DNA from: Lysobacterales bacterium | Lineage (GTDB): Bacteria; Pseudomonadota; Gammaproteobacteria; Xanthomonadales; Marinicellaceae | Direction: 5' to 3' | Assembly: GCA_027067055.1 (NCBI GenBank) | Contig: JAMOMK010000086.1 | Span: 1 to 64,000 of the forward strand | Length of the DNA stretch: 64,000 nucleotides | In this document: piece by piece, positions 5,233 through 30,264 of the stretch | Layout: each line of letters begins with the position of its first letter | Numbering within the stretch: the first letter of the stretch is position 1 | The notes under the pieces: generated by a model | What the model saw: the letters and a program-made list of their open reading frames with translations, nothing else | The model's database searches: none | Told to the model about the DNA's origin: nothing | Translations under genes and position numbers: made by a program

Positions 5233-6927
5233 ATGAAAACTTTTGCCGTACATTGCCTATCTCGAATGGGCTTCAGTCATAAAATAACCAATAATAGCAG
5301 TGATATTGCAGACTTTGAAGCTCTAGGAGCTACAAATAATGCTCGCATTTCTGCTTACCTAGCACAACAGTTAAATTGGCAAAGTATTGATGACAATGCC
5401 TTTGAAACAATGGTAGCTAATGCGAACTATGTCACTTTAGATAAGCCCTTGGTACAAATGTGGCAAGATCATCACGTTAATACTGGTGCTGCTGGGTTCA
5501 ATCGAGATGCTCCTGCTGAAGAAATGGAGCGATTGGTTTTGGCTCGTGCTGTTTACAGTAAAAGACAGTTACTGGAAGTGATGGCAGATTTTTGGCACAA
5601 TCATTTTAACATTTATTCGCGAAGTTATTATGCTCAATCAGTTTTCACATCGTGGGATCGTGATGTTATTCGCCCACCAGTTGCAGGACACCCGCGAGAA
5701 GCCGCTAACCCAGATGGTCATTTGTTTGGCAATTTTAGGCAAATGCTTGAGTTGTCATCAAAACACATTGCTATGAATTATTATTTGGATAATTACATTA
5801 ATGACAAAGGAAGTCCAAATGAAAATTATGCGCGAGAAATTATTGAACTACATACTTTGGGTGCGGAAAACTATGTTAGCTTAGGCGATCCTGCATCTAT
5901 AAATAAGACCTCTCTATCATTTCCCTGGGGGAATGAGCTTATTGCAGATCAATATGTAGATAGTGATGTTTATGCTGCGATGCGTATATTAACAGGTTGG
6001 AGGGTAAAGGACAGGTTGGGGCAAGCATCTGCAGATAATTTAGATACAGGAGAGTTTTTCTTTTATGCCGGCGGACATGATGCTTTTGCAAAAACTATTT
6101 TAGGTTATAGCTGGAATGATTTTGACCCAAGCCCAAATGACATCTTGCGTTTCTTTGATATTTTGGCTTATCACCCAGGCACTGCTAAACATATTGCTGG
6201 CAAGTTGTGTCGACGATTTATTGGCGATAATCCTCCACAAACAATTATTGATGCTGTGGCAGATACCTTTTATCAAAATAGGTATGCAAGTAATCAATTG
6301 GAGCTGGTTTATCAAACCTTGTTTTTATCCGCCGAGTTTAAAGACCCCAATAACTATGGTGGGAAAGTTAAACGTCCATTAGAGGTGGTTGCCAGTGCTT
6401 TGCGTGTTTGTGGTTCTGATTTTATGCCAAGACAAGGACATAGCGACACCAATACTATTATTGGCTACTTTATGCGACGGGCTGGGCAAAGACCCTTTTT
6501 ATGGCCGTCACCAGATGGTTTTAGCGATGAAAGCGAACACTGGGTCGGCGGGACTGTTTTAACTTATAATATGCGCTTTTTTGATTGGATGTTAGACCAG
6601 CGTTACAATACAGCCGATAGAATTGTACCTGTTTTAGACATTACTCTCAACGCACCTTCGGTAGAGCTGCCAAATCACTCTCCCAACAATTTAACAACTT
6701 TTTGGATGAATAGAATTCTTGGTTATGAACCACCAGGTGGCTGGCCAGGAACAACTTTACATACAACTTTGCGTCAGTTTATGCAACAAAATGCAAGTGA
6801 CCCACAGCTATGGCCTGCCGATACTCCTTTTCCTGATATTAGCACGACATCTAGTCCATATATTTATGAACGCTTACGTGCATTGGTCAAACTCATATTA
6901 ACTACTCCAGAATTCATGTATAGGTAA
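5233..6927 (+). CDS. DUF1800 domain protein
   Basis: This 564-residue protein fits DUF1800: an N-terminal helical segment with LSRMGFSH, a central WHNHFNIY motif, SPNENYAREIIELHTLG (about 196-212), a GWRV segment, and the LELVYQTLFLSAEFKD and TTPEFMYR C-terminal signatures. DUF1800 proteins are almost always encoded just before a DUF1501 protein, as here with only four bases between the genes. No classical signal peptide is evident, so export of this partner, if any, may depend on the Tat-exported DUF1501 partner. The biochemical role of the pair is unknown. It lacks the C-terminal FE tail seen on its partner. Confidence 0.85.
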   Translation: MKTFAVHCLSRMGFSHKITNNSSDIADFEALGATNNARISAYLAQQLNWQSIDDNAFETMVANANYVTLDKPLVQMWQDHHVNTGAAGFNRDAPAEEMERLVLARAVYSKRQLLEVMADFWHNHFNIYSRSYYAQSVFTSWDRDVIRPPVAGHPREAANPDGHLFGNFRQMLELSSKHIAMNYYLDNYINDKGSPNENYAREIIELHTLGAENYVSLGDPASINKTSLSFPWGNELIADQYVDSDVYAAMRILTGWRVKDRLGQASADNLDTGEFFFYAGGHDAFAKTILGYSWNDFDPSPNDILRFFDILAYHPGTAKHIAGKLCRRFIGDNPPQTIIDAVADTFYQNRYASNQLELVYQTLFLSAEFKDPNNYGGKVKRPLEVVASALRVCGSDFMPRQGHSDTNTIIGYFMRRAGQRPFLWPSPDGFSDESEHWVGGTVLTYNMRFFDWMLDQRYNTADRIVPVLDITLNAPSVELPNHSPNNLTTFWMNRILGYEPPGGWPGTTLHTTLRQFMQQNASDPQLWPADTPFPDISTTSSPYIYERLRALVKLILTTPEFMYR

Positions 6928-6931
6928 CGAA

Positions 6932-8191
6932 ATGATAACTCGCAGAAAATTTTTACAAGGGACAACCGCTTTTTTTACACTCGCCGGTTCTGGTATCACT
7001 ATCGGTTTGACTAACAAAAAAAACACCTCACTTGCCAATCAAAAAACATTGGTACATTTGTTTTTTCGAGGTGGAATGGATGCGCTCAACTTTCTTATTC
7101 CTCGCACAGGAATTAATCGTAGTGAATATGAAACAAAAAGACCAAATATTCAGGTACCAGTTAATTTAACCCTAAACTTAAATGGAGACTTTGGTCTACC
7201 ATCTACGTGCAGTGCCTTACACCAACTTTACCAACAAGGGAATATGGCAATGATTCATTCTGTCGGAATGCCAGAAGGTCTAAGTTCTCGCAGTCACTTT
7301 GAGTCACAAGCAATGTTTGATTATGGTACACCAGGGGATTCGTTACACGCAGATGGTTGGTTGGCTAGACATATCAATACTTCGACAACAATTGACGTGT
7401 CAGACACAATTGTTTCGATGTCATCTGGGAATCCGCCAGTTAGTCATCAAGGAGATAGTACGGTCTTGTCTATTGATGACCCTAACAGCTTGCACCCAAA
7501 CCCAGGTCGATACCAAGAAGAACACTTGGCAACCTTAAATCAATTGTATTCTGGAACAGGTTTGTTAGAAGATGCTATGATTGCCACAATTGAAAACATT
7601 AGTATTATTACGGGCTTGGATTTAACAATACCTAGCTCATACCCCGATGAGGCTCTAGCACAAGACCTGGCCTTAATTGCTCAGATTATTAAAGCTGATC
7701 TTGGATTAGAGGTTGCCAGTGTTGACTTTGGTGGTTGGGACACTCATGAAAATTCAGGTAATTCAGGCACAGGTTATTATGTTGATCGACTGGGCACGGT
7801 CTCAGCAGCGATAGGAGCTTTTTTTGATGATTTAACAGCAACAGGTTTAGCTGATAATGTTGTCTTAACTACACAAACAGATTTTGGAAGAAGAGTGAGG
7901 CAAAATGGTAACCGTGGAACTGACCACGGAACGGGACAAGCAATGATGGTGGTAGGTGGCAGTATTAATGGAGGTCAGGTTTTGGGAACATTTCCTGGCA
8001 TTGAAGATGCTGACTTATACCTTAATACAGACCTACGTATGACAACAGATTTTCGCCAACCTTTAAGTGATGTAGTGAAAAACTTTTTAGGCAATCCCAA
8101 TATTGATGTGGTGTTTCCTGGTTATACTGGAGAAACCTCTATTGGATTGTTTCCAATCAATGATACATTATTTGGAAACGGATTTGAGTAA
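6932..8191 (+). CDS. DUF1501 domain protein, Tat-exported
   Basis: This 419-residue protein starts with a twin-arginine signal (TRRKFLQG, residues 3-10, followed by a hydrophobic stretch), indicating folded export through Tat. DUF1501 features include HLFFRGGMDALNFL, SRSHFESQAMFDYG, VDFGGWDTHEN, TTQTDFGRRV and GTDHGTG; the fold is related to alkaline phosphatase/sulfatases, but the substrate is unknown. It ends DTLFGNGFE, the short C-terminal tail also found on several other secreted proteins in this window. It is probably translated with the DUF1800 gene four bases upstream. Confidence 0.87.
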   Translation: MITRRKFLQGTTAFFTLAGSGITIGLTNKKNTSLANQKTLVHLFFRGGMDALNFLIPRTGINRSEYETKRPNIQVPVNLTLNLNGDFGLPSTCSALHQLYQQGNMAMIHSVGMPEGLSSRSHFESQAMFDYGTPGDSLHADGWLARHINTSTTIDVSDTIVSMSSGNPPVSHQGDSTVLSIDDPNSLHPNPGRYQEEHLATLNQLYSGTGLLEDAMIATIENISIITGLDLTIPSSYPDEALAQDLALIAQIIKADLGLEVASVDFGGWDTHENSGNSGTGYYVDRLGTVSAAIGAFFDDLTATGLADNVVLTTQTDFGRRVRQNGNRGTDHGTGQAMMVVGGSINGGQVLGTFPGIEDADLYLNTDLRMTTDFRQPLSDVVKNFLGNPNIDVVFPGYTGETSIGLFPINDTLFGNGFE

Positions 8192-10063: not shown

Positions 10064-11611
10064 TTATTCAAAACTATCTTGAAAGATATTATCATTAATA
10101 TATTTTATTTCCTCTATTGCACCAGCACTATTCGCATCAAATAAAGTGTAACCTGGAACTCCAATAATTAGTGATCTTGAAAATTGGTCTCCATCATAAA
10201 ATGAGGCACTTAGTGTCGCTAGTGAATTTCCAAATTTAGAAAAATTTTCAGGATGGTCATTGGCTATAAGAATACTATTTGAGGCATCAGCACCTGTTTG
10301 ACTTCCTAAAATAATATGCACAACTCCATCATCTGTTGCTGCAAAATTTTCTAAAGGAACGCCAATAAATAAATCATCCTGAATATCAAATAACCCCTCT
10401 GGGTTAATGTTGCCAGTTGTAATGGATAAACCAAATTGATCTCCCGCCTCTATACTGCCATAAATCCCAGGAGTTTCTTGTGAAAATACTTGATTTCCTG
10501 TTGCCACTAAACCAGTAATTGAACCATAAAAAGCATGTACAACTCCAGCATCTATCACAGCACCAATGTCTTCGTATGGCACGCCTATAATAAGCTCATC
10601 AGCTAAATCGTCTGGAAATATACCGTTCAAATTCCCTGTTGCCAAAGTATAACCGAACATATCATCATCTTCGGAAGTTTCATCACTGCTATCATCTTGA
10701 CTCCAAAGACGAGAATAAACTAGACCAAACTCACTGCCTGTAAGGACCTGAACAATTCCATCATTGGTTGCATGATAATCCTCAAAGGGAACACCAATAG
10801 CTAAGTCATCATAGAAAAATGCGGCAGATGTATCTTTATTAAAATCACCTGATGCTAATGACCAACCAAACAAATCTCCCGATTCAGGTACTCCAAACAC
10901 ACCGTTTGCTCCTTGCTTGATTATTAAGGAAGTATTAGCAAGACCTAACGAAGTACCATTATAAACTCTTACTTCACCTGCACTTGTTACACCATTAACG
11001 GCTTTATACGGACTAGAAACTGCCAAATCATCTTTTCCATCACCATTATAATCACCTGACACCATACTGTAACCAAACTTTTCTGACTGACCCTCTCCAG
11101 TCGCAATTGTTGTAGAACTGGTTGTTTGTAAGCCCGATGAACTACCTTCATAAATTGCTATTATTCCTGCTGCTGTTACACCGCTATAGTAATAAAACGG
11201 TATTCCTACTGCCAAATCATCTTTACCATCCCCATCAAAATCACCTGCTGCTAAACTAAAGCCAAACCCATCTGATTTTTGAATAGATGAATCAGGCAAT
11301 ATTTCAGTATAATTAGAAGGAACAAGACCTAATAAAGATCCATAAACCACTAGTATTGCACCAGTATCATTAAAACCAACACTTCTGACCGCAATATCAT
11401 CATAATTATCACCGTTGAAATCTCCCCTTACTACTAGTTTACCAAATTCATCTGACAAACTAGATCCCCCCATGTACATTAACTGTCTACTTGATTCAAC
11501 TACTGTGTTCAATACGTCGGATATCGTTTTTAATATTTGGTTATAATAGTCAGCAATGTTGTTAGCGTTGACCTGAAATGTAACCAATAATATTAATGCC
11601 TTGCTTTTCAT
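10064..11611 (-). CDS. Secreted FG-GAP repeat beta-propeller protein
   Basis: This protein of about 515 residues has a signal peptide (MKSKALILLVTFQVNA) and about seven FG-GAP/integrin-alpha-type repeats, each with a calcium-binding loop such as DFNGDNYDDIAV, DFDGDGKDDLAVG and DYNGDGKDDLAV and an FG[YFW]S[LM] turn, implying one propeller. The ATG at 11611 is preferred over 11635 because GGAGA precedes it and it begins the signal peptide. It follows the next FG-GAP gene by 13 bases. The propeller resembles the C-terminal propeller of the kinase encoded upstream. It ends NIFQDSFE, the shared C-terminal tail. Function is unknown; ligand binding or adhesion is plausible for the fold. Confidence 0.85.
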   Translation of the reverse strand: MKSKALILLVTFQVNANNIADYYNQILKTISDVLNTVVESSRQLMYMGGSSLSDEFGKLVVRGDFNGDNYDDIAVRSVGFNDTGAILVVYGSLLGLVPSNYTEILPDSSIQKSDGFGFSLAAGDFDGDGKDDLAVGIPFYYYSGVTAAGIIAIYEGSSSGLQTTSSTTIATGEGQSEKFGYSMVSGDYNGDGKDDLAVSSPYKAVNGVTSAGEVRVYNGTSLGLANTSLIIKQGANGVFGVPESGDLFGWSLASGDFNKDTSAAFFYDDLAIGVPFEDYHATNDGIVQVLTGSEFGLVYSRLWSQDDSSDETSEDDDMFGYTLATGNLNGIFPDDLADELIIGVPYEDIGAVIDAGVVHAFYGSITGLVATGNQVFSQETPGIYGSIEAGDQFGLSITTGNINPEGLFDIQDDLFIGVPLENFAATDDGVVHIILGSQTGADASNSILIANDHPENFSKFGNSLATLSASFYDGDQFSRSLIIGVPGYTLFDANSAGAIEEIKYINDNIFQDSFE

Positions 11612-11624
11612 TATTCTCTCCAAC

Positions 11625-13232
11625 TTATTGTTCAAAACTGTTTTTAAAAATCACACCGTAGTCTTTATAAGCTACTTCAAATACGGAACCTGAATTTAAA
11701 AGTCCATCTCCAGATGTGGTAGTAGGTGCGCCAATAATAACGGAAAAATCAGATTGAAAATACATTGAAGCCAGAGAGCTGCCAAAGTGCGCTTCATTTT
11801 CCAGTCCCGAAACAATAATTTCTTCACTGGTTATTGTATCAAGCCCTATATTACTACCAAAAATAGTTTGTACGAAACCATCGTTGGTAAAGTGATAATC
11901 TTCAAGCGGGGTTGATATAATTACATCTTCATAAGCATCTGTATTTAATCTTCCTGTGGCAACTGCAAACCCAAACAAATCACCGGGCTCTACCACTCCA
12001 AATATTCCGGCTGTGTTTTGTGAAATTGTTTGGTTACCAGCAGATGTTAAACCACTACTTGTTCCGTAAATAATATTGACAGCACCACCATCTACAACAG
12101 TGACAATATCCTCAAAAGGAACACCAACAACAAGATCAGAATTAAAATCACCATCAAAGTCACCTGCTGCTAAAGAAAAACCAAATAAATCGCCTGTCTC
12201 AACCAAGTCACTAATATTGCCTTGAGTCCAATCAGATGCAAAAACTAAACCTCCTAAGCTTCCATGAAACTCATGAATCATTCCTGCGTCGATAACAGCT
12301 CCTACATCTTCATTGGGTGCTCCAATAATTAAATCTGCATAGGCAACTAAGCCATTATTATTTTTTAATCCTATACTCTCGTTAAAATAGCCAAACACCA
12401 AACTCCAACCAAACCGGTCTCCTGCCTCAACAGGGTCTGTAGTGTCAGCTTGACTAATAGACATTCTATTATTGCTAGTTATGCCTACCGTTACTTGACC
12501 AGGATATATAAATACTACTCCTGCATCGACTTGCATTGATCCATTAATCAAATCTGTGTATGGAGCAGATACAGCCAAATCTGTATAACCATCATCATTG
12601 ACATCACCTGCTGCTAAGCTAAACCCGAACTGACAACCAACCTGTAAACTACAGACATCTACTGCTGTTATGTAAGTTGAATTAATAGATAATCCACTGG
12701 CTGACCCATAAAAAATATTGATAGCTCCTGCATCAACAATGACTGCACCTCCATCTATTATTTCATCTTCTAATGGTGTACCCACTACCAAATCACTAAA
12801 ACCGTCACCGTTAAAATCTCCAGTAGCCAGACTGGAGCCAAATGCATCTTCGTATTCGGCTAAATTACCGCTTCCATGTTGAGATAATATTTGACTATTG
12901 TTACTGCTTAAACCATTATTGGTTCCATATAATATAAAGACAGCACCAGCTGTAAATTCTAGAAAATTATAGGCTGGCGCACCAATTGCCAGATCTTGAT
13001 AGCCATCAGCATTAAAATCTCCAGATGCTAATACCTGCCCATAGTTATCATCACCAATACTAAGTCCTGGGGTTCCTGGTGAATCTAAATCCCAATAAGC
13101 ATAAGTTATGTTACTTATTGATTCTATGGTTTTCCCTAATTTATCTTTATAGAGATCATTAGCAGATAACCTCAATGGCTGCGAACTAACGGTGAATGTT
13201 AATAGCAATAATATTGTTGTTAAGTTTTTCAT
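11625..13232 (-). CDS. Secreted FG-GAP repeat beta-propeller protein
   Basis: This protein of about 535 residues is a close relative of the downstream FG-GAP protein: signal peptide (MKNLTTILLLLTFTVSS), then about seven repeats with loops such as DFNADGYQDLAIGAP, DFNGDGFSDLVVGTP, DVNDDGYTDLAVSAP and DFDGDFNSDLVVGVP. The ATG at 13232 is chosen because AAGGA lies eight bases upstream and the signal peptide begins there; the longer frame to 13304 is not needed. The C-terminus is GVIFKNSFEQ, the shared tail plus one residue. A 254-base gap separates it from the kinase gene, so it may also have its own promoter. Confidence 0.85.
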   Translation of the reverse strand: MKNLTTILLLLTFTVSSQPLRLSANDLYKDKLGKTIESISNITYAYWDLDSPGTPGLSIGDDNYGQVLASGDFNADGYQDLAIGAPAYNFLEFTAGAVFILYGTNNGLSSNNSQILSQHGSGNLAEYEDAFGSSLATGDFNGDGFSDLVVGTPLEDEIIDGGAVIVDAGAINIFYGSASGLSINSTYITAVDVCSLQVGCQFGFSLAAGDVNDDGYTDLAVSAPYTDLINGSMQVDAGVVFIYPGQVTVGITSNNRMSISQADTTDPVEAGDRFGWSLVFGYFNESIGLKNNNGLVAYADLIIGAPNEDVGAVIDAGMIHEFHGSLGGLVFASDWTQGNISDLVETGDLFGFSLAAGDFDGDFNSDLVVGVPFEDIVTVVDGGAVNIIYGTSSGLTSAGNQTISQNTAGIFGVVEPGDLFGFAVATGRLNTDAYEDVIISTPLEDYHFTNDGFVQTIFGSNIGLDTITSEEIIVSGLENEAHFGSSLASMYFQSDFSVIIGAPTTTSGDGLLNSGSVFEVAYKDYGVIFKNSFEQ

Positions 13233-13486
13233 AATAAATTTCCTTAAAATAATAGCTTCTATAATAAGCTTGACTCGCAGAGAAAAAATTAAAAAAACCA
13301 TCAATCATGCTGTTCAAACTTCGACTTCTTAAATTTTCAAGAAACACATATGTAAAGATGCAATTATTTTTAAAATCGCACAAACTATTGTGGTTTTTTC
13401 ATTGTTGATGGTCTTAATCATACAAGATGGTTGAAGCCCATTCTGCTGGTTGGTGAAGTAGATACAGGACTGTGAAAGAATCTCTT

Positions 13487-16400
13487 CTATTTTGAAAAAA
13501 TACTGTCCAACACTGTATTCTCTGAAGCGGTATACTTAACTTGAATAACACCTCCTGCTTGTATTTGTGTCTCATTAATCACTCGACCTGGGGCGGCAAT
13601 GATTAAACTTAAATCTTGCCCAAATTTATTGGTAAGTATTGTGGTTCCACATTGTGCATTTTGTTGTTTACAAAAATAATTGCTTTTGTTATCAATGGAA
13701 CCTTTGGCATTACCAAAAATAACTTGTACAAGTCCTGAATCAACATTATTGCCAATATCTTCATCAGGAAGCCCCAATATTACATCATCATATCCATCAG
13801 AATTTATATCTGCCATTCTTATAACTTTTCCTAACTGATCTTGATGTTCTGCCATATCATTGTTCTCTGAAGCATTTTGTATCAACATTTGATTGTTGGC
13901 ATCAGTTAAACCATTATTTGAACCAAAAATAATATGTGCTACGCCACCATTTGGCACACCTGACGAAAAGTAATCCTCCCCAGGTACACCTACAATCAAA
14001 TCATCAATCTTATCACCGTTGTAATCGCCCGTAGCAATAGCAAAACCAAATTTGTCTCCACTTTCCCCCATTCCTGAAACTGTTCTGTTGTACTGGCTCC
14101 AAATTGAATTTTCTTGAGTTAGACCACTTTTACTGCCATTAATAATATGTACCACTCCAGAAAAAAGATCTGTTCCCTCACTTTCAAAAGGTACGCCTAT
14201 AGCTAAATCCTCATGACCATCATGGTTAAAATCACCTGCAGATAAACTCCAGCCAAATTGGTCATAATTTTCAACTGTATTTATCATATTCTTAGAGTTT
14301 TGATTTATTTCAATTTGCTTAGTAGGATTAATGCCTTGTGAGCTACCAAAATATAAGTGCACTGTTCCTGCGTTGTAGTATGTTTTATTTAATGTGATGT
14401 TTTTTTGTGGAGCAGAAACTATCAGTTCATCTAAAGAATCTTGGTTAAAATCAGCTGCTATTATAGACCAACCAAATTGAGCATTTTTACTAGGACTCTG
14501 TTCAGAAATAAGATCTTCTTTTAGGAGCAAACCAGATAATGAGCCATAATAAACGGCTACTGAACCAGCATCTTTTTTTCCTTGTACATCCCTGTATGGA
14601 ATACCAACAGCTAAATCATCAAACCCATCACCATTAAAATCCCCACTAACCAAACTACTTGCAAAAGCATCATAATTATCGCCTTCTTTGTGATTTAAAA
14701 TATAACTATTTTTATCATTTAAGCCTGTTGCAGAGGCATAAATGATTACAGCTATCCCTGTATATTTTTTGTTATTGAAATCTGCATTTGGAACACCAAT
14801 TACCAAGTCTAAAAAACCATCATTGTTAAAATCTCCTTGGGTAATTGCAGCACCAAAGTTATCGTAAGCTTGCGATAAAACTGGCGTGTTAAGTCTGTTT
14901 AAGTTCCAGCCTATGATTGAATCTTTTTGCATTGTACTCATGACAGTGTCTTTTTTACTTAATTCAACAATGGTTGCCACTTTATAGGACTTATCTTTTA
15001 GTATTATCCAATTAAAAGGTTTGTCTGTTATTTTGTATGTGAGCTGTCTCTTATTGGCAGTAGATTTTTGTACATACATTTGTGGGTATTGCAAATTCTC
15101 TCTTCGTGCTTTCCATGGTTCAAAAGTTAAATTATCTTCAATAAACTGCTGTAAAGAATTTATTTTTTTTATACTTTTACTAAGTTCTCTTTTCTTAATC
15201 GCCTTATTAAGGCTATAAAAATCCTGTTTAAATACAACAGATTGAGCCTTAAGCTCCTCAACATAATAACTATTACTTACTTCTTTAAACATTTCGTATG
15301 CTTGCTCAAATTGATTTGCTTTTAGAAAATATTTCATTAGTTGTATTTGAAAATCAAATGTTTTTGCAAAATCTTGATCGTAATATTTATAAAAATCAGG
15401 AATATAGAAAAGCAAAGTACTGATAGATTTTTGGTAATTTTCTTGGTTAGCATATAGTTGTGCTAAAAATAGTCGAGTTGATAAAGTATTGTTATCGACA
15501 GCACCTAATATCAACTTCATTTCGGTAATGCTGTCCATGAGAAATTGCTCTCCTTGCATCATGCTTTCTTTATAGCGCATTAAATTAGCCCCTAAAGTGG
15601 CTTTTATTATAATTTCTAAAACGCTCTTGGTTGCAGAGGCATGTCTTTGTGTAGCTAAGGCTTTTTTATAAAAATCAATGGCTTTGAAGTATTCTTTCTT
15701 CACTTCATAATAATTTCCTTCCATCAATTCAATGTTGGCTAGTATGGTTAAATCATTATCACTGTTTTTCCATAAAGTTTTTGCTTGCTTTAGTAGTTTT
15801 GGCACATCTTTCAAATACCCTCTCTTGTTGTAACCATCAATTAACTTCGTAATAACTGACAATTTAGTGTTCACTCCTTGTGATGTGGTTGGAGAAATTT
15901 TGTTAGCTAAAATTAAAAGGCGCTCAGACTGTTGGAAGTCTTTCTTCTGATTCAATGCATGGCTTTTAAGAGCCAATAATTGCAACTTCATTACGTTTGA
16001 AATTTCTTCATTAGCCAACAAAAAAGAACTTAAAATAATGGTTTGGTCATCTTTATCTTGGTAAGCATAAGTTTTTACCAGATGAAATAAGCTATCTATT
16101 TTTTGCTGTTCAGATATTAGTTTATTATCAATTAACATTTGTTGTGCTTCAGATAAAACATCAATTGATAGCATGGTGTTGTTATCCGTTGCTGGCGTTA
16201 ACTTCATTAATGTATCAGCGAGAATATTATTTAAAGCTAGAGTTTCGTTACTTGCTTGTTTGGTTTTATAATTACTATAAAGAGAAATCACAGTCACTAA
16301 AAATGCAAAAAGAAAAGCAGTAGCAAGAGTATAATTTTTTGCCCGCTTTAATGGTCTCTGGTTTATTTCATTTAATTTTTCTAATACGGTCTGGATATTT

Positions 16401-17326
16401 GGTCTATCTTTTGGTTTTTTGGCAACCATGTCGACTATGAGTTTAACCCATAGTTTTGAACCTGTTAGCGATTTTTTTTGTAACACCAATTGACTTGCTT
16501 GGGTCTTGATAGTTTCTATGTCCTTGCCATTAAGGGGGGGGTTACCTGTATTAATACTCCAAAACAACAACCCTAATGAAAAAACATCACTGGCTTTAGA
16601 TTGTGCGGTGCCATCAAATTGTTCTGGAGCCATTGAGAGTGGACTTGCTTGAATAATTTGCTTATGTTCACTGCCTGCTTCATGCTGCCTACTAGAGCCA
16701 AAATCTAGTAAAATTGCTCCTCGATGTTCTTGCAACATGATGTTTTGAGCTTTGATGTCACCATGAACTAAATTGCTTTTATGGATTTGGTTGACAGCTT
16801 CACTCATTTGTCGAGCCAACCTTAATTGTTGTTGCCAGCTAATTTTATTTGTTAGAAGCTTGTCACTTAATAATTTGCCATCCAAATAGTCACTCCAATA
16901 ACCTGCAATATTTTTATCAATAGTTGCCCCATGAATAGCCAAAACATGCGGATGACGGACTTTTGCCATGTTGCGTGCTTCTTGCAAAAACTGCTGAGTA
17001 GATACATAAAGCTGGCTTTTTTGATTGAGAAATTTTACCGCAACGTCACAATTCAATGCCGAATCATAAGCTCGATAAACCTCACCTATTCCTCCTTCGC
17101 CGATTTTATCTTTTATAATTAAATGAGCCCACTTCTCATTTTCAGCAATGCCTTGAACTTCACCTTGCTTACGAATAGTTTGGGAAACATGCTGAATTTT
17201 TTCTAATGCTACTACAATTTTTTTAGCATCTTTTGAGTCAAACTGCTCGGCAATGCTTAAATTCAATCTCCCATCATTGATTTTAGCCGCAATTTCTTCT
17301 ATCTTTTTCTCATCCGATTTTTTCAT
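13487..17326 (-). CDS. Transmembrane Ser/Thr protein kinase with TPR and FG-GAP propeller
   Basis: The protein has 1279 residues. A Hanks-type kinase domain (about 66-325) shows the glycine loop GEGGIGEV (76-83), Lys98, the catalytic loop VHGDIKAQN (Asp190) and DFG (208-210); HGD instead of HRD makes it a non-RD kinase. A single membrane segment (about 331-351) follows. An extracytoplasmic TPR-like helical region covers about 360-790, then about seven FG-GAP repeats (820-1270) with loops such as DFNNDGFLDLVIGVP and DYNGDKIDDLIVGVP. The kinase faces the cytoplasm and the propeller the periplasm. Its last residues (TVLDSIFSK) align with the ends of the two secreted propellers but lack the FE tail. 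It is followed by those two propeller genes and preceded by a FISUMP gene and an ECF sigma factor gene. Targets are unknown; the sigma factor is an obvious candidate. Confidence 0.88.
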   Translation of the reverse strand: MKKSDEKKIEEIAAKINDGRLNLSIAEQFDSKDAKKIVVALEKIQHVSQTIRKQGEVQGIAENEKWAHLIIKDKIGEGGIGEVYRAYDSALNCDVAVKFLNQKSQLYVSTQQFLQEARNMAKVRHPHVLAIHGATIDKNIAGYWSDYLDGKLLSDKLLTNKISWQQQLRLARQMSEAVNQIHKSNLVHGDIKAQNIMLQEHRGAILLDFGSSRQHEAGSEHKQIIQASPLSMAPEQFDGTAQSKASDVFSLGLLFWSINTGNPPLNGKDIETIKTQASQLVLQKKSLTGSKLWVKLIVDMVAKKPKDRPNIQTVLEKLNEINQRPLKRAKNYTLATAFLFAFLVTVISLYSNYKTKQASNETLALNNILADTLMKLTPATDNNTMLSIDVLSEAQQMLIDNKLISEQQKIDSLFHLVKTYAYQDKDDQTIILSSFLLANEEISNVMKLQLLALKSHALNQKKDFQQSERLLILANKISPTTSQGVNTKLSVITKLIDGYNKRGYLKDVPKLLKQAKTLWKNSDNDLTILANIELMEGNYYEVKKEYFKAIDFYKKALATQRHASATKSVLEIIIKATLGANLMRYKESMMQGEQFLMDSITEMKLILGAVDNNTLSTRLFLAQLYANQENYQKSISTLLFYIPDFYKYYDQDFAKTFDFQIQLMKYFLKANQFEQAYEMFKEVSNSYYVEELKAQSVVFKQDFYSLNKAIKKRELSKSIKKINSLQQFIEDNLTFEPWKARRENLQYPQMYVQKSTANKRQLTYKITDKPFNWIILKDKSYKVATIVELSKKDTVMSTMQKDSIIGWNLNRLNTPVLSQAYDNFGAAITQGDFNNDGFLDLVIGVPNADFNNKKYTGIAVIIYASATGLNDKNSYILNHKEGDNYDAFASSLVSGDFNGDGFDDLAVGIPYRDVQGKKDAGSVAVYYGSLSGLLLKEDLISEQSPSKNAQFGWSIIAADFNQDSLDELIVSAPQKNITLNKTYYNAGTVHLYFGSSQGINPTKQIEINQNSKNMINTVENYDQFGWSLSAGDFNHDGHEDLAIGVPFESEGTDLFSGVVHIINGSKSGLTQENSIWSQYNRTVSGMGESGDKFGFAIATGDYNGDKIDDLIVGVPGEDYFSSGVPNGGVAHIIFGSNNGLTDANNQMLIQNASENNDMAEHQDQLGKVIRMADINSDGYDDVILGLPDEDIGNNVDSGLVQVIFGNAKGSIDNKSNYFCKQQNAQCGTTILTNKFGQDLSLIIAAPGRVINETQIQAGGVIQVKYTASENTVLDSIFSK

Positions 17327-17427
17327 AAAGTTTAAATCTTTATTATGTACTTACCATCATATCGTAACATTACATCCAAACTAAAACGCAAAGACTTAAA
17401 GCAAATAGCGACTTTTTTTAAGTAGGT

Positions 17428-19158
17428 TTAGTCCATTATGCATCGGACAGCCATGCCAGCAGCTCTATGATAGGAGTCTACTTGTGTGACACTTTGATAA
17501 AAATATAGGAGCTCTGCATTTGTATTTGAAATTGTACTTGACCAATAATTACCTGTATTTTCATAAATAACACCATCAGAATCACGAAAACCTGTCATAG
17601 GCAGTTTTAATGGGGAAAGCCATGCACCTGCTGCAGAGTCATAAAACCAACTTTGTCTTTCTGTATCCCATTCGCCTGTGGTCGGTAATCTAAAACCACT
17701 AGGACAAGGATTATTTGCACCGTTAAGCCCTTGCCATAAGGTATCAATTTGTGGGGTCACCCAATCAAAAGGAGTGGCATTTTCGGTTATAAACCGACCA
17801 TACCAAACTCCAGGTAACAAAACATATGATGCATGGGTTGCATTGGTTGCTGTTGTTGCACTATCCCTTTTTTCATGACCTTCAGATGCTCGTCCCCATT
17901 GGTATAAATCTCCTCTATCGCCCACATTAGCAGCACCTAGATTTCTATCCAACCAAACACGTCCACCAGCAGAGACTACTGCTGACATATTGTCACAAAG
18001 ATTATCCCAATAGGCATTGAGAATATAAATTTCATTGCAGTTGGTAGAGGTGTTGTAAATGGTTAAACCATTAACTGGACTAACAATGGCATCACGTTGT
18101 GTTGTGGTCATGCGTGGTGGTAAAAAGCCTTGAGTTGTGGATTCCACTTGTAATTTGGCAGAACTTGCCGGCGATCCTGTACCAATTGACACCGCTCCTT
18201 GTCCAACCGAGTTTATCACCAAGGTTCGACCTTCGGCTGCAGTATAGTCGTAGGATTCTATTCGAGAAGCTCCTGCTGTATTTACACCGTCAATTAATAA
18301 GCCAACAGTAGCCGCACTTTCAGGGGCAATGGAACCAAAAAAAGCTCGACCATTGCCAGCTATGGTAAGTTGTTCGGTTGGCTCTAATGTACCAACACCA
18401 ACCTTAGGAGATGATAAAGCTATTCGGTTAGAGGCCGCCAAGGATAAAGAGTCATCCACATCTTCACTGATTGAAACATAATTGGCATCGCCAAAATTTA
18501 ATTTTGCTCCATAGCCATAAACTCCACCTTGAGAACCCATTAAACGCAAGGCATTATCATCAATATCGGATGCAACAGTTAATCGATGGGTTGCCTCAGT
18601 TGTACCAATACTAACATCACTCAAATAATCAATTCCTGCACCATTTGTCAACCACGGGGATGCGACAGGGATTGTGGGTTGATTAATTAAATCATTATAA
18701 TCTCCACTAAATCCACTTGATGGTGTGGCTGGTTGCCAGCCTGTGGTATTATCAAAGGTTAGTACTTGTCCATTTGTTGCTCCTTTGTCTATTAAGGTTG
18801 TGGCATAGGGTACGGATTTTATTTTTTGTCGTGGTGATAGTGCGGTAAAGCTGGCATCACTTGCACTTTTTACCCTGATTTCTAACCATATATCCAAGCC
18901 ATCATAAATATTTGCACCGAGATTGACATTATCGATAGTGAAAATCCCTGCACTTACTTGCACACTTGAATGAGTTGACATGACACCAAGCATGTTGCCT
19001 GCGGTCGTTGCATCATAAGCTTGTATAGTAATGGTAAATATCCCATTTGCTGGCATTCCTGCATCTAATAATTTCCCTTGATAGCTAAAAGTTTGATCAA
19101 CGGTATGTGCTGTATTAATGCATAACACTAAGAGTGTTAGTTTAATGAATCGCTTCAT
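17428..19158 (-). CDS. Secreted surface protein with C-terminal FISUMP domain
   Basis: This protein of about 576 residues has a signal peptide (MKRFIKLTLLVLCINTAHT) and an N-terminal YQGKL domain (FSYQGKLLDAG ... LSPRQKIKSVPYA). Fibre-like segments of the type VSIGTTEATHRLTV and VGVGTLEPTEQLTI follow, and the C-terminal FISUMP domain begins GGRVWLDRNLGAA, contains NPCPSGFRLPTTGEW and ends GMAVRCIMD. The ATG at 19158 is used because GGGGAA precedes it and it starts the signal peptide. It is 16 bases after the 83-residue gene and is a paralogue, in its N-terminal half, of the 361-residue protein at 28913-29998. It is probably an extracellular structural or adhesive protein; function is unknown. 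Confidence 0.82.
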   Translation of the reverse strand: MKRFIKLTLLVLCINTAHTVDQTFSYQGKLLDAGMPANGIFTITIQAYDATTAGNMLGVMSTHSSVQVSAGIFTIDNVNLGANIYDGLDIWLEIRVKSASDASFTALSPRQKIKSVPYATTLIDKGATNGQVLTFDNTTGWQPATPSSGFSGDYNDLINQPTIPVASPWLTNGAGIDYLSDVSIGTTEATHRLTVASDIDDNALRLMGSQGGVYGYGAKLNFGDANYVSISEDVDDSLSLAASNRIALSSPKVGVGTLEPTEQLTIAGNGRAFFGSIAPESAATVGLLIDGVNTAGASRIESYDYTAAEGRTLVINSVGQGAVSIGTGSPASSAKLQVESTTQGFLPPRMTTTQRDAIVSPVNGLTIYNTSTNCNEIYILNAYWDNLCDNMSAVVSAGGRVWLDRNLGAANVGDRGDLYQWGRASEGHEKRDSATTATNATHASYVLLPGVWYGRFITENATPFDWVTPQIDTLWQGLNGANNPCPSGFRLPTTGEWDTERQSWFYDSAAGAWLSPLKLPMTGFRDSDGVIYENTGNYWSSTISNTNAELLYFYQSVTQVDSYHRAAGMAVRCIMD

Positions 19159-19174
19159 AATATTTCCCCTTAAA

Positions 19175-19426
19175 TTATTCAAATCCGTCTTCAAAGACAA
19201 AGTCATTGAATGACTGCCAAAAACCACCATTAAGTGTGTAGTTACCATTTGCTTGTATGACACTAGCATCTACTTGGGCTATGCTGACAACCATTTCATA
19301 GCTCCCTCCGAACATTTTTTCACCACCACTGTTTATGGTCTGTTTATTAATCTCGTACCCTGCAAAACTATAGCTAAAAACTATTAACATACTTAAAGTG
19401 GTTATTGTTTTTATGTGTTTCTTCAT
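19175..19426 (-). CDS. Small secreted GGFW-type protein with FE tail
   Basis: This 83-residue protein has a signal peptide ending near SFAG. The mature part YEINKQTINSGGEKM ... YEMVVSIAQ ... NYTLNGGFWQS matches the 84-residue protein at 30010-30264 (INSGG/ISNGG, SIAQ/TIGQ, GGFW/SGFW). Short proteins with this GG...Y...IGQ...GGFW pattern occur in several phyla without known role. It ends FVFEDGFE. It sits between the ECF sigma factor and FISUMP genes. Confidence 0.75.
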   Translation of the reverse strand: MKKHIKTITTLSMLIVFSYSFAGYEINKQTINSGGEKMFGGSYEMVVSIAQVDASVIQANGNYTLNGGFWQSFNDFVFEDGFE

Positions 19427-19614
19427 CTTTCATACCTTTACCTGCTACTTATCTTAATTATAGAAGATGAAAATAATTTAATAATCGCACAAATAAATTT
19501 CATTTTTGTACTTTAGTACTGCAATTTTTATGTAACTTTTACTAATTTTTTACTTAAAAGCTGAGGTCATTGTGCTTCTTATTTTCCCCATTACATTTTA
19601 TATACAGCATTAAT

Positions 19615-20157
19615 TTATATCATGTGTTTGGCTAGTTTTACCAATGCACGGGTTATATACATCCGAACCGAGTTGGCTGAAGGTTTATCAGTAATGTCAG
19701 CAATTTCTTGATAGCTAAATCCAAACTCCAATCGTAAAACTATGGCTTCTTTTTCTTTTTTTGATACCTTTTCAAGGGCAGCATCATAGTCAATAATAGT
19801 GTTAATATCTCGATTGTAGGCTAGTTTTTTTTCCCCAGCACATTGGATAATTGATAATTGAAAAGGCTTGTTTTTGCGCAATTCTTGTTTGATTTGATTG
19901 ATGAAAACAGTGCGTAGATAGGCAAAAAAAGCACCTGGTCTTTGTGCTTTTATGCTTTTGATGTTTTTAAATGCTAACATCAAGGTGTCTTGAACCATGT
20001 CTTGAGTATCCATAAAACCCTTTGCTTGAGCAGGAATTCGACCATGTGCCCATTTCATTAATTCAGGCTGATAAAGATTGAACAACTTTTCACAGGAGGA
20101 TTGATCTCCGTCTTTAAGTTGCCTCAATAACATTGCAGTAGTAGAAAAATTATTCAT
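19615..20157 (-). CDS. ECF-type RNA polymerase sigma factor
   Basis: This protein of about 180 residues has region 2 (MKWAHGRIPAQAKGFM, then MDTQDMVQDTLMLAF, the core-binding and -10 recognition helices, and GAFFAYLRTVFINQI) and region 4 (KEKEAIVLRLEFGFSYQEIA with a following recognition helix). The DTQDMVQDTL version of region 2 is typical of ECF groups encoded near Ser/Thr kinases rather than anti-sigma factors. No anti-sigma gene is adjacent, while a transmembrane Ser/Thr kinase is encoded in the same block, so control by phosphorylation is a reasonable inference, as known for EcfP/PknT in Vibrio. The start at 20157 is chosen over 20196 because the extra residues look non-conserved; neither has a good ribosome binding site. 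Confidence 0.82.
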   Translation of the reverse strand: MNNFSTTAMLLRQLKDGDQSSCEKLFNLYQPELMKWAHGRIPAQAKGFMDTQDMVQDTLMLAFKNIKSIKAQRPGAFFAYLRTVFINQIKQELRKNKPFQLSIIQCAGEKKLAYNRDINTIIDYDAALEKVSKKEKEAIVLRLEFGFSYQEIADITDKPSANSVRMYITRALVKLAKHMI

Positions 20158-30009: not shown

Positions 30010-30264
30010 CTATTCAAAACTGTTGGTAAAAATTAATTCTGGCAACGGTATATTTGAGTGCCAAAAGCCACTCTTAACTGAAAACCCACCGCCTTGTGAT
30101 TGCTGTGTAATATGTTGTCCAATGGTGCCTTCTAGTTTATATCCTGCATTTATACTGATGCCGCCACCATTAGAAATAACGTGTTTTTTTATAGAAAAGT
30201 CCTGAGCACTAACAAGGCTGACACAACAGATTACAAAGAAAGTAAGCGAAGTTAAACCTTTCAC
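30010..30264 (-). CDS. Small secreted GGFW-type protein with FE tail
   Basis: This 84-residue protein has a signal peptide ending VSAQ and a mature region FSIKKHVISNGGGIS ... YKLEGTIGQ ... FSVKSGFWHS related to the 83-residue protein at 19175-19426. It ends LIFTNSFE. The start is GTG at 30264, overlapping the stop of the upstream gene as GTGA and preceded by a strong AGGAGGT ribosome binding site, so it is translationally coupled. Confidence 0.75.
   Translation of the reverse strand: MKGLTSLTFFVICCVSLVSAQDFSIKKHVISNGGGISINAGYKLEGTIGQHITQQSQGGGFSVKSGFWHSNIPLPELIFTNSFE

Follow-up and report, generated by a model that had tools for sequence, protein, structure and literature searches.

A Ser/Thr kinase-linked ECF sigma factor and its predicted FG-GAP propeller output in a Lysobacterales bacterium

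Results

A dedicated kinase, sigma factor and propeller circuit is proposed

A 64,000-nucleotide stretch from the genome of a marine Lysobacterales bacterium (assembly GCA_027067055.1, contig JAMOMK010000086.1, positions 1 to 64,000; "the window") contains at 10064-20157 a block of six genes for an extracytoplasmic function (ECF) sigma factor, a small GGFW protein, a FISUMP-like protein, a Ser/Thr receptor kinase and two free FG-GAP propeller proteins, F2 and F1. All six lie on the minus strand, as a preliminary description of this DNA had it. We propose that the block encodes a dedicated one-receptor circuit, in which the kinase would act on the sigma factor and the sigma factor would drive the free propellers, and we put the probability of this at about 0.6. 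The sequence itself shows the pairing of the sigma and kinase genes, the kinase ectodomain and a shared promoter-like element. The features of the block are as follows.

19615..20157, minus strand: ECF sigma factor, 180 aa, with sigma-70 regions 2 and 4 (Pfam) and the sigma2.2 motif D50-T51-Q52-D53
19464..19491, minus strand: predicted sigma promoter TGTGCGATT-N13-CATCTT; the GGFW start codon begins 38 nt downstream
19175..19426, minus strand: GGFW small protein, with a signal-peptide-like N-terminus and the C-terminal tail FEDGFE
17428..19158, minus strand: protein with an FSYQG N-terminus and a weak FISUMP C-terminal domain (sub-threshold Fib_succ_major)
13487..17326, minus strand: Ser/Thr receptor kinase, 1279 aa, with a kinase domain (72-316), a membrane helix (~333), a TPR-like region (~360-780) and an FG-GAP propeller (~800-1270)
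13355..13382, minus strand: predicted sigma promoter TGTGCGATT-N13-CATCTT; the likely F2 start codon is 123 nt downstream
11625..13232, minus strand: FG-GAP propeller protein F2, with a signal-peptide-like N-terminus (by eye) and the tail FKNSFEQ
10064..11611, minus strand: FG-GAP propeller protein F1, 13 nt after F2, with a signal-peptide-like N-terminus (by eye) and the tail FQDSFE

Likely start codons were picked by eye for sigma (ATG 20157), FISUMP (19158), F2 (13232) and F1 (11611). Profile searches with Pfam and NCBIfam found no anti-sigma domain in the six proteins. Across the 145 contigs (3.42 Mb) of the source genome, Pkinase was matched 14 times, 13 of them above cut-off.

The sigma factor and the kinase are an old gene pair

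The preliminary description had named a lack of co-occurrence of the sigma factor and the kinase in relatives as one result that would refute its reading. The sigma protein was searched against 61 genomes, yielding 67 matches in 29 genomes (own genome included), and all 66 others were checked for their neighbours. A kinase gene lay directly downstream of the sigma gene in 58 of the 62 clear relatives and in none of the four weak ones, so the proposed pairing held. Among the first 59 relatives, 56 had a same-strand kinase within 600 bp downstream; in the three exceptions the kinase was 161 bp away on the opposite strand, ~3.3 kb away, or missing from the stretch. The last seven comprised three with E values of ~1e-21 to 1e-24, two of them with a kinase directly downstream, and the four weak ones (E 1e-10 to 1e-8). 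Many of the paired genes overlap by a few bases. Seven other kinase genes of the own genome adjoin an ECF sigma gene (L002, L004, L007, L008, L009, L010 and L012), and the window pair is the eighth. Judged by this conservation, sigma factor and kinase are an old pair, and since the genes are linked, control of the sigma factor by the kinase is likely.

In the window the two genes are separated by GGFW and FISUMP; the closest orthologues (G027 L081, G028 L082 and G030 L084) lack this insertion. GGFW genes are common, with 7 matches in the own genome and presence in 35 of the 61 genomes. Because the three closest blocks are without it and GGFW is so widespread, we read GGFW-FISUMP as a cassette recruited between sigma factor and kinase. 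The six genes thus do not form an ancestral set. The domain naming the FISUMP protein, Fib_succ_major, was matched below cut-off in both Pfam (28.6 bits; cut-off 33.9) and NCBIfam (30.6; cut-off 41.65).

The sigma factor retains an acidic DxxD motif

The closest named relatives of the sigma factor are from one Lysobacterales metagenome-assembled genome (MAG), two uncultured Marinicella MAGs and Marinicella meishanensis. Its sigma2.2 motif reads DTQD, with the acidic DxxD retained. In an alignment of 50 sequences that included the window's, with ten others dropped by an open reading frame (ORF) filter, position 2 of the motif was Thr and position 4 Asp in all 50. Three reports describe ECF43 sigma factors as having lost DxxD (QTTA) and as phosphorylated at the third position (PMC13147305, PMC8999054, PMC8103513). 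The window sigma factor has neither the uncharged replacement nor a phospho-Thr at the third position and, by its motif, is not ECF43. The ECF43 mechanism of EcfP/PknT, to which the preliminary description had appealed, is therefore not supported in that form: with DxxD kept, the charge switch of EcfP and EcfK does not apply as such. Thr51 is a candidate phosphorylation site only. The seven other sigma-kinase pairs of the own genome mostly carry TPT-like (ECF43-like) residues at the DxxD position.

The receptor kinase bears an integrin-type propeller

Pfam detected a protein kinase domain (145.7 bits in the own-genome search, 141.9 bits with hmmscan) and six FG-GAP stretches in the kinase protein. 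It has a single membrane helix at residue 333 and the kinase motifs GEGGIGEVY, HGDIKAQN, DFG and APE. The FG-GAP region scored 174.6 bits (PF01839, cut-off 22.1) and contained DxDxDG-like loops, and its best PDB match was integrin alpha-5 (8.1e-16). TPR was sub-threshold in the window kinase and clear in the G030 orthologue (TPR_12, 2.5e-15). Of the architecture first described, the kinase domain, the one helix and the FG-GAP propeller were recovered above threshold or plainly, and TPR in the window protein only as a sub-threshold match.

A fused propeller was present in three of the four orthologous kinases and missing from that of G030. The tree of sigma plus kinase placed G030 outside window, G027 and G028 (100/99; approximately unbiased test, AU, p 0.008 against G030+G027+G028). 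The TPR-region tree gave the same placement (97/97), and the kinase domain alone weakly disagreed (74/84, six rows). The kinase may have gained the propeller, or that of G030 may have lost it.

The free propellers are old relatives of the fused one

FG-GAP scores were 137.9 bits for F2 and 123.4 bits for F1 (PF01839), again with DxDxDG-like loops, and F2 also matched integrin alpha-5 best in the PDB (7.8e-15). Fused and free propellers of the window are 36-38% identical over the whole domain and 40-41% identical in local BLAST alignments. In a tree of 26 propellers (3 fused, 23 free) made by a quick method, the three kinase-fused ones formed one clade (100) and the orthologous downstream free ones another (100), while window F1 paired with an unlinked G027 propeller (97). 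On this tree, a recent duplication of the fused propeller as origin of the free ones is rejected. From their identity and separate clades, fused and free propellers appear to be old relatives; the earlier wording "free copies of that propeller" fits them only loosely.

Seven of the 23 free propellers, the window's two included, have a sigma-kinase pair no more than 2 kb away; with 8 pairs per genome, a rough expectation would be about 2%, which suggests a recurring link. Two more (L083 and L141) are beside a contig break, L083 directly downstream of a kinase. The remaining 14 have no pair in the stretch; five of these have <2 kb on one side, among them L013, for which the adjacent stretch L012 holds a pair at a distance of ~7 kb. 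Sigma type and gene arrangement vary among the linked pairs: the sigma motifs are ECF43-like in L145 and L148, and in L153 and L155 the propeller is divergent and the kinase short, so that pairs with sigma types other than the window's have free propellers as well. Weaker propeller proteins, outside the tree and in stretches chosen via sigma, stand beside sigma-kinase genes in L109 and L121. In L153 and L155 (kinases of 350-359 aa), a cytochrome c-like gene was seen by eye 3' of the propeller and an efflux-adaptor-like gene 3' of the kinase.

A promoter-like element precedes the free propellers

When upstream regions were read, the sequence TGTGCG[AT]TT-N13-CATCTT was found with identical spacing at five sites: before two unrelated genes of the window, F2 and GGFW, and before the orthologous free propellers in G028, G027 and G030. 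It ended 35-38 nt from the start in G028, G027, G030 and GGFW, and 123 nt from that of F2; in G030 it falls within the propeller gene's longest frame, and an ATG 35 nt downstream was taken as the start. Such spacing is compatible with an ECF promoter. In a dyad search of four of these regions the score was 38 of 39, whereas none of 300 dinucleotide shuffles exceeded 34.

In the own genome, TGTGCGW-N15-CATCTT occurs exactly only twice, before the F2-F1 operon and before GGFW; there are eight one-mismatch places, and the one whose surroundings were inspected is inside an ORF. This core pattern had 17 exact matches in the 61 genomes (7 in the reversed control), and the five that also carry TT after W are exactly the five known sites. 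A relaxed form, TGTGC[AG][ACT]TT-N13-CATCTT, had 8 exact matches in 33 family genomes and 1 in the reversed control. Six of the eight are 35-123 nt before a free-propeller or GGFW start, all in the four genomes with a sigma orthologue (at least 67% identity: own, G027, G028 and G030); the other two (G030 and G007) are inside other ORFs. One of the six, outside the five defining sites, precedes an unlinked free propeller in G027 (C257) that starts 44 nt downstream. With one mismatch allowed, five genomes gave 21 places, every one of which overlaps an ORF. That in G030 L180 falls in the end of a gene with the C-terminal tail described in the next section, and a lipoprotein-like frame follows after 33 nt, which makes it a possible further target. 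The element was not found upstream of the sigma gene itself, a search by eye and with one regular expression for a comparable element at other propeller-linked pairs gave nothing convincing, and a sigma-70 promoter scan showed no excess over shuffles.

Since the element is almost confined to free propellers and GGFW in sigma-orthologue genomes, we predict a local regulon with the free propellers at its centre, in the window F2-F1 and GGFW-FISUMP. F2 and F1, being 13 nt apart, are probably one operon. At 17327-17427 the minus strand showed no terminator-like site, so read-through from GGFW-FISUMP into the kinase is possible. The free propeller is the predicted output common to all four genomes, to which the window adds GGFW. 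The earlier suggestion that the sigma factor drives the secreted proteins is probably correct, given an element shared by the free-propeller operon and GGFW and found almost nowhere else.

A recurrent C-terminal tail

Many secreted-looking proteins end in F-x-[DN]-[GS]-F-E-stop (FE tail), with 42 exact matches in the own genome (reversed control 1) and 1049 in the 61 genomes (control 14), spread over 52 of them. In the window it occurs at 8171-8191, 10064-10084, 19175-19195 and 30010-30030. The tail may be an undescribed sorting signal; no NCBIfam tail model matched the tailed window proteins at E 0.1, and a literature search gave nothing relevant to it among the papers listed. Close to the block, adjoining DUF1800 and DUF1501 genes lie at 5233-8191, the second with an FE tail.

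FE-tail genes numbered 8 near family sigma-kinase pairs (1.63 expected; 22 loci among L085-L127) and 6 near the seven own-genome pairs listed above (1.50 expected). None was near lone kinases (5 loci) or lone sigma factors (6 loci), where about 1 was expected in either case. Enrichment was not seen outside the family (4 vs 2.77 expected, 34 loci), and the orthologous blocks L081, L083 and L084 contain no exact tail.

Discussion

The proposed circuit and the points against it

We propose that the TPR-like and FG-GAP ectodomain lets the membrane kinase respond to a cue beyond the inner membrane, and that the kinase activates the sigma factor, most likely by phosphorylation, as gene linkage and the analogy with EcfP and EcfK suggest. 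The sigma factor would then transcribe from promoters of the relaxed form, driving the free propellers and, in the window genome, also GGFW-FISUMP, possibly with read-through into the kinase. Because these promoters would drive free propellers, the output would repeat the domain type of the sensor. The free propellers would be surface or secreted binding proteins for the kinase's target class, made on contact, and may feed back on the kinase. Ligand sensing, sigma phosphorylation, use of the element by the sigma factor, the surface location of the products and the sign of the feedback are the steps that we infer.

Several observations weigh against this circuit, which is read from sequence. 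With DxxD retained, switching of the sigma factor by phosphorylation is left without the ECF43 route, and Thr51 was set aside as a diagnostic phospho-site: of 66 wider relatives with enough flank, 26 carry this Thr and have no kinase gene beside them (one of the two search patterns required Thr, which makes the count no measure of conservation). The catalytic loop of the kinase reads HGD at residue 188 rather than the usual HRD, and the G030 kinase has no propeller although the G030 free propeller keeps the element. The element itself was read off five sites, leaving only the G027 C257 site and the element's rarity elsewhere as independent evidence; the C257 upstream region was known before the pattern was relaxed, and the G027 and G028 upstream regions are near-copies. 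The dyad of the two window regions alone was matched by 7 of 300 shuffles. Allowing up to two mismatches gave 180 own-genome matches against 90 in the reversed control, so that weaker sites are not assessable.

A bolder form of the circuit is a closed loop, in which the main regulon consists of free versions of the receptor's ligand-binding domain type, the same ligand is bound at both ends and the propeller shifts between free and fused states in evolution. We hold this only tentatively and think it rather doubtful; if true, sensor and output would see the same ligand as decoy, co-receptor or self-sensing matrix.

Alternative explanations

That sensor and main predicted output belong to the same integrin-type propeller family, behind a promoter that looks dedicated, would suit a decoy or shed receptor: the free propellers would bind the kinase's ligand and turn the kinase off, giving a self-limiting detector. 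However, fused and free propellers share little more than a third of their residues and form separate clades, and G030 has a free propeller without a fused one. A literature search for bacterial decoy receptors returned nothing relevant among the matches listed. We consider such a decoy unlikely. The same G030 locus, where a kinase without a propeller has a free one just downstream behind the element, speaks for free propellers that act as co-receptors, binding the ligand and handing it to the ectodomain of the kinase so as to raise sensitivity, as do the free propellers beside other sigma-kinase pairs, including L145 and L153 whose kinases have no FG-GAP match. But the linked kinases of G013 and G017, at 350-359 aa, leave no room for an ectodomain past the kinase domain, making direct presentation unlikely there, and a co-receptor role is about as improbable overall as a decoy.

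A plainer explanation deserves more weight, although we would still not expect it to prevail: family sigma-kinase pairs may control surface proteins in general, the free propellers being ordinary contact-regulated adhesins and the kinase propeller an accident of domain shuffling. The enrichment of FE tails near family pairs and the seven GGFW matches of the own genome agree with this, whereas the lack of enrichment outside the family, the missing tails in the three orthologous blocks and the fused propeller in three of four orthologues do not. Finally, sigma and propeller genes could be mere neighbours and the element another regulator's, use of it by the sigma factor being predicted from sequence. 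We judge this quite improbable, for six promoter-placed sites fall in the four sigma-orthologue genomes and the other 29 family genomes give one match, inside an ORF.

Comparison with known systems

Few ligands or targets are known for kinase-controlled sigma factors, which were recognised as a class only recently. The predicted promoter of the proposed circuit is short, specific and nearly confined to the block, which would make the whole input-output loop testable with one reporter. The block also provides a sigma factor outside ECF43 with which to study switching by a kinase when the acidic core-binding motif is intact, and a kinase whose ectodomain is a bacterial propeller of the integrin type. 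No paper joining FG-GAP, kinase and ECF sigma factor was found in searches of open-licence literature; the preliminary description, too, knew of no described system with this gene set.

PknD of Mycobacterium tuberculosis, like the window kinase, is a membrane-bound Ser/Thr kinase that bears a beta-propeller on the outside and is tied to a sigma pathway (PMC4601284). Unlike the window kinase, PknD works via SigF and the anti-anti-sigma factor Rv0516c. The PknD propeller is of the NHL repeat type, whereas that of the window kinase is FG-GAP, with no NHL match by Pfam in the ectodomain. Free propellers are not known as an output of PknD. Integrin alpha has the FG-GAP repeat family common to F2 and the kinase ectodomain, as their best PDB matches indicate, but the window propellers are bacterial and either form part of a kinase or are separate proteins that end in an FE-type tail.

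The nearest parallels are EcfP/PknT of Vibrio parahaemolyticus and EcfK/PknS of Xanthomonas citri, in which, as in the window, an ECF sigma gene is paired with one for a receptor that has a kinase, a transmembrane and a TPR (in the window, TPR-like) part. The adjacency to a Hanks-type kinase that marks ECF43 is seen in the relatives, and in the window with two genes between; of the PknS-like architecture the window kinase has the N-terminal kinase and one helix, while its TPR match is sub-threshold and that of the G030 orthologue clear. The differences are that EcfP and EcfK read QTTA/STTA where the window sigma factor reads DTQD, that the window kinase bears an extra FG-GAP propeller, and that the targets of EcfP and EcfK are type VI secretion system (T6SS) or polymyxin-resistance genes, those predicted here being free propellers. 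By its genes and motifs, the block resembles these kinase-linked ECF systems but departs from them at the ECF43 motif.

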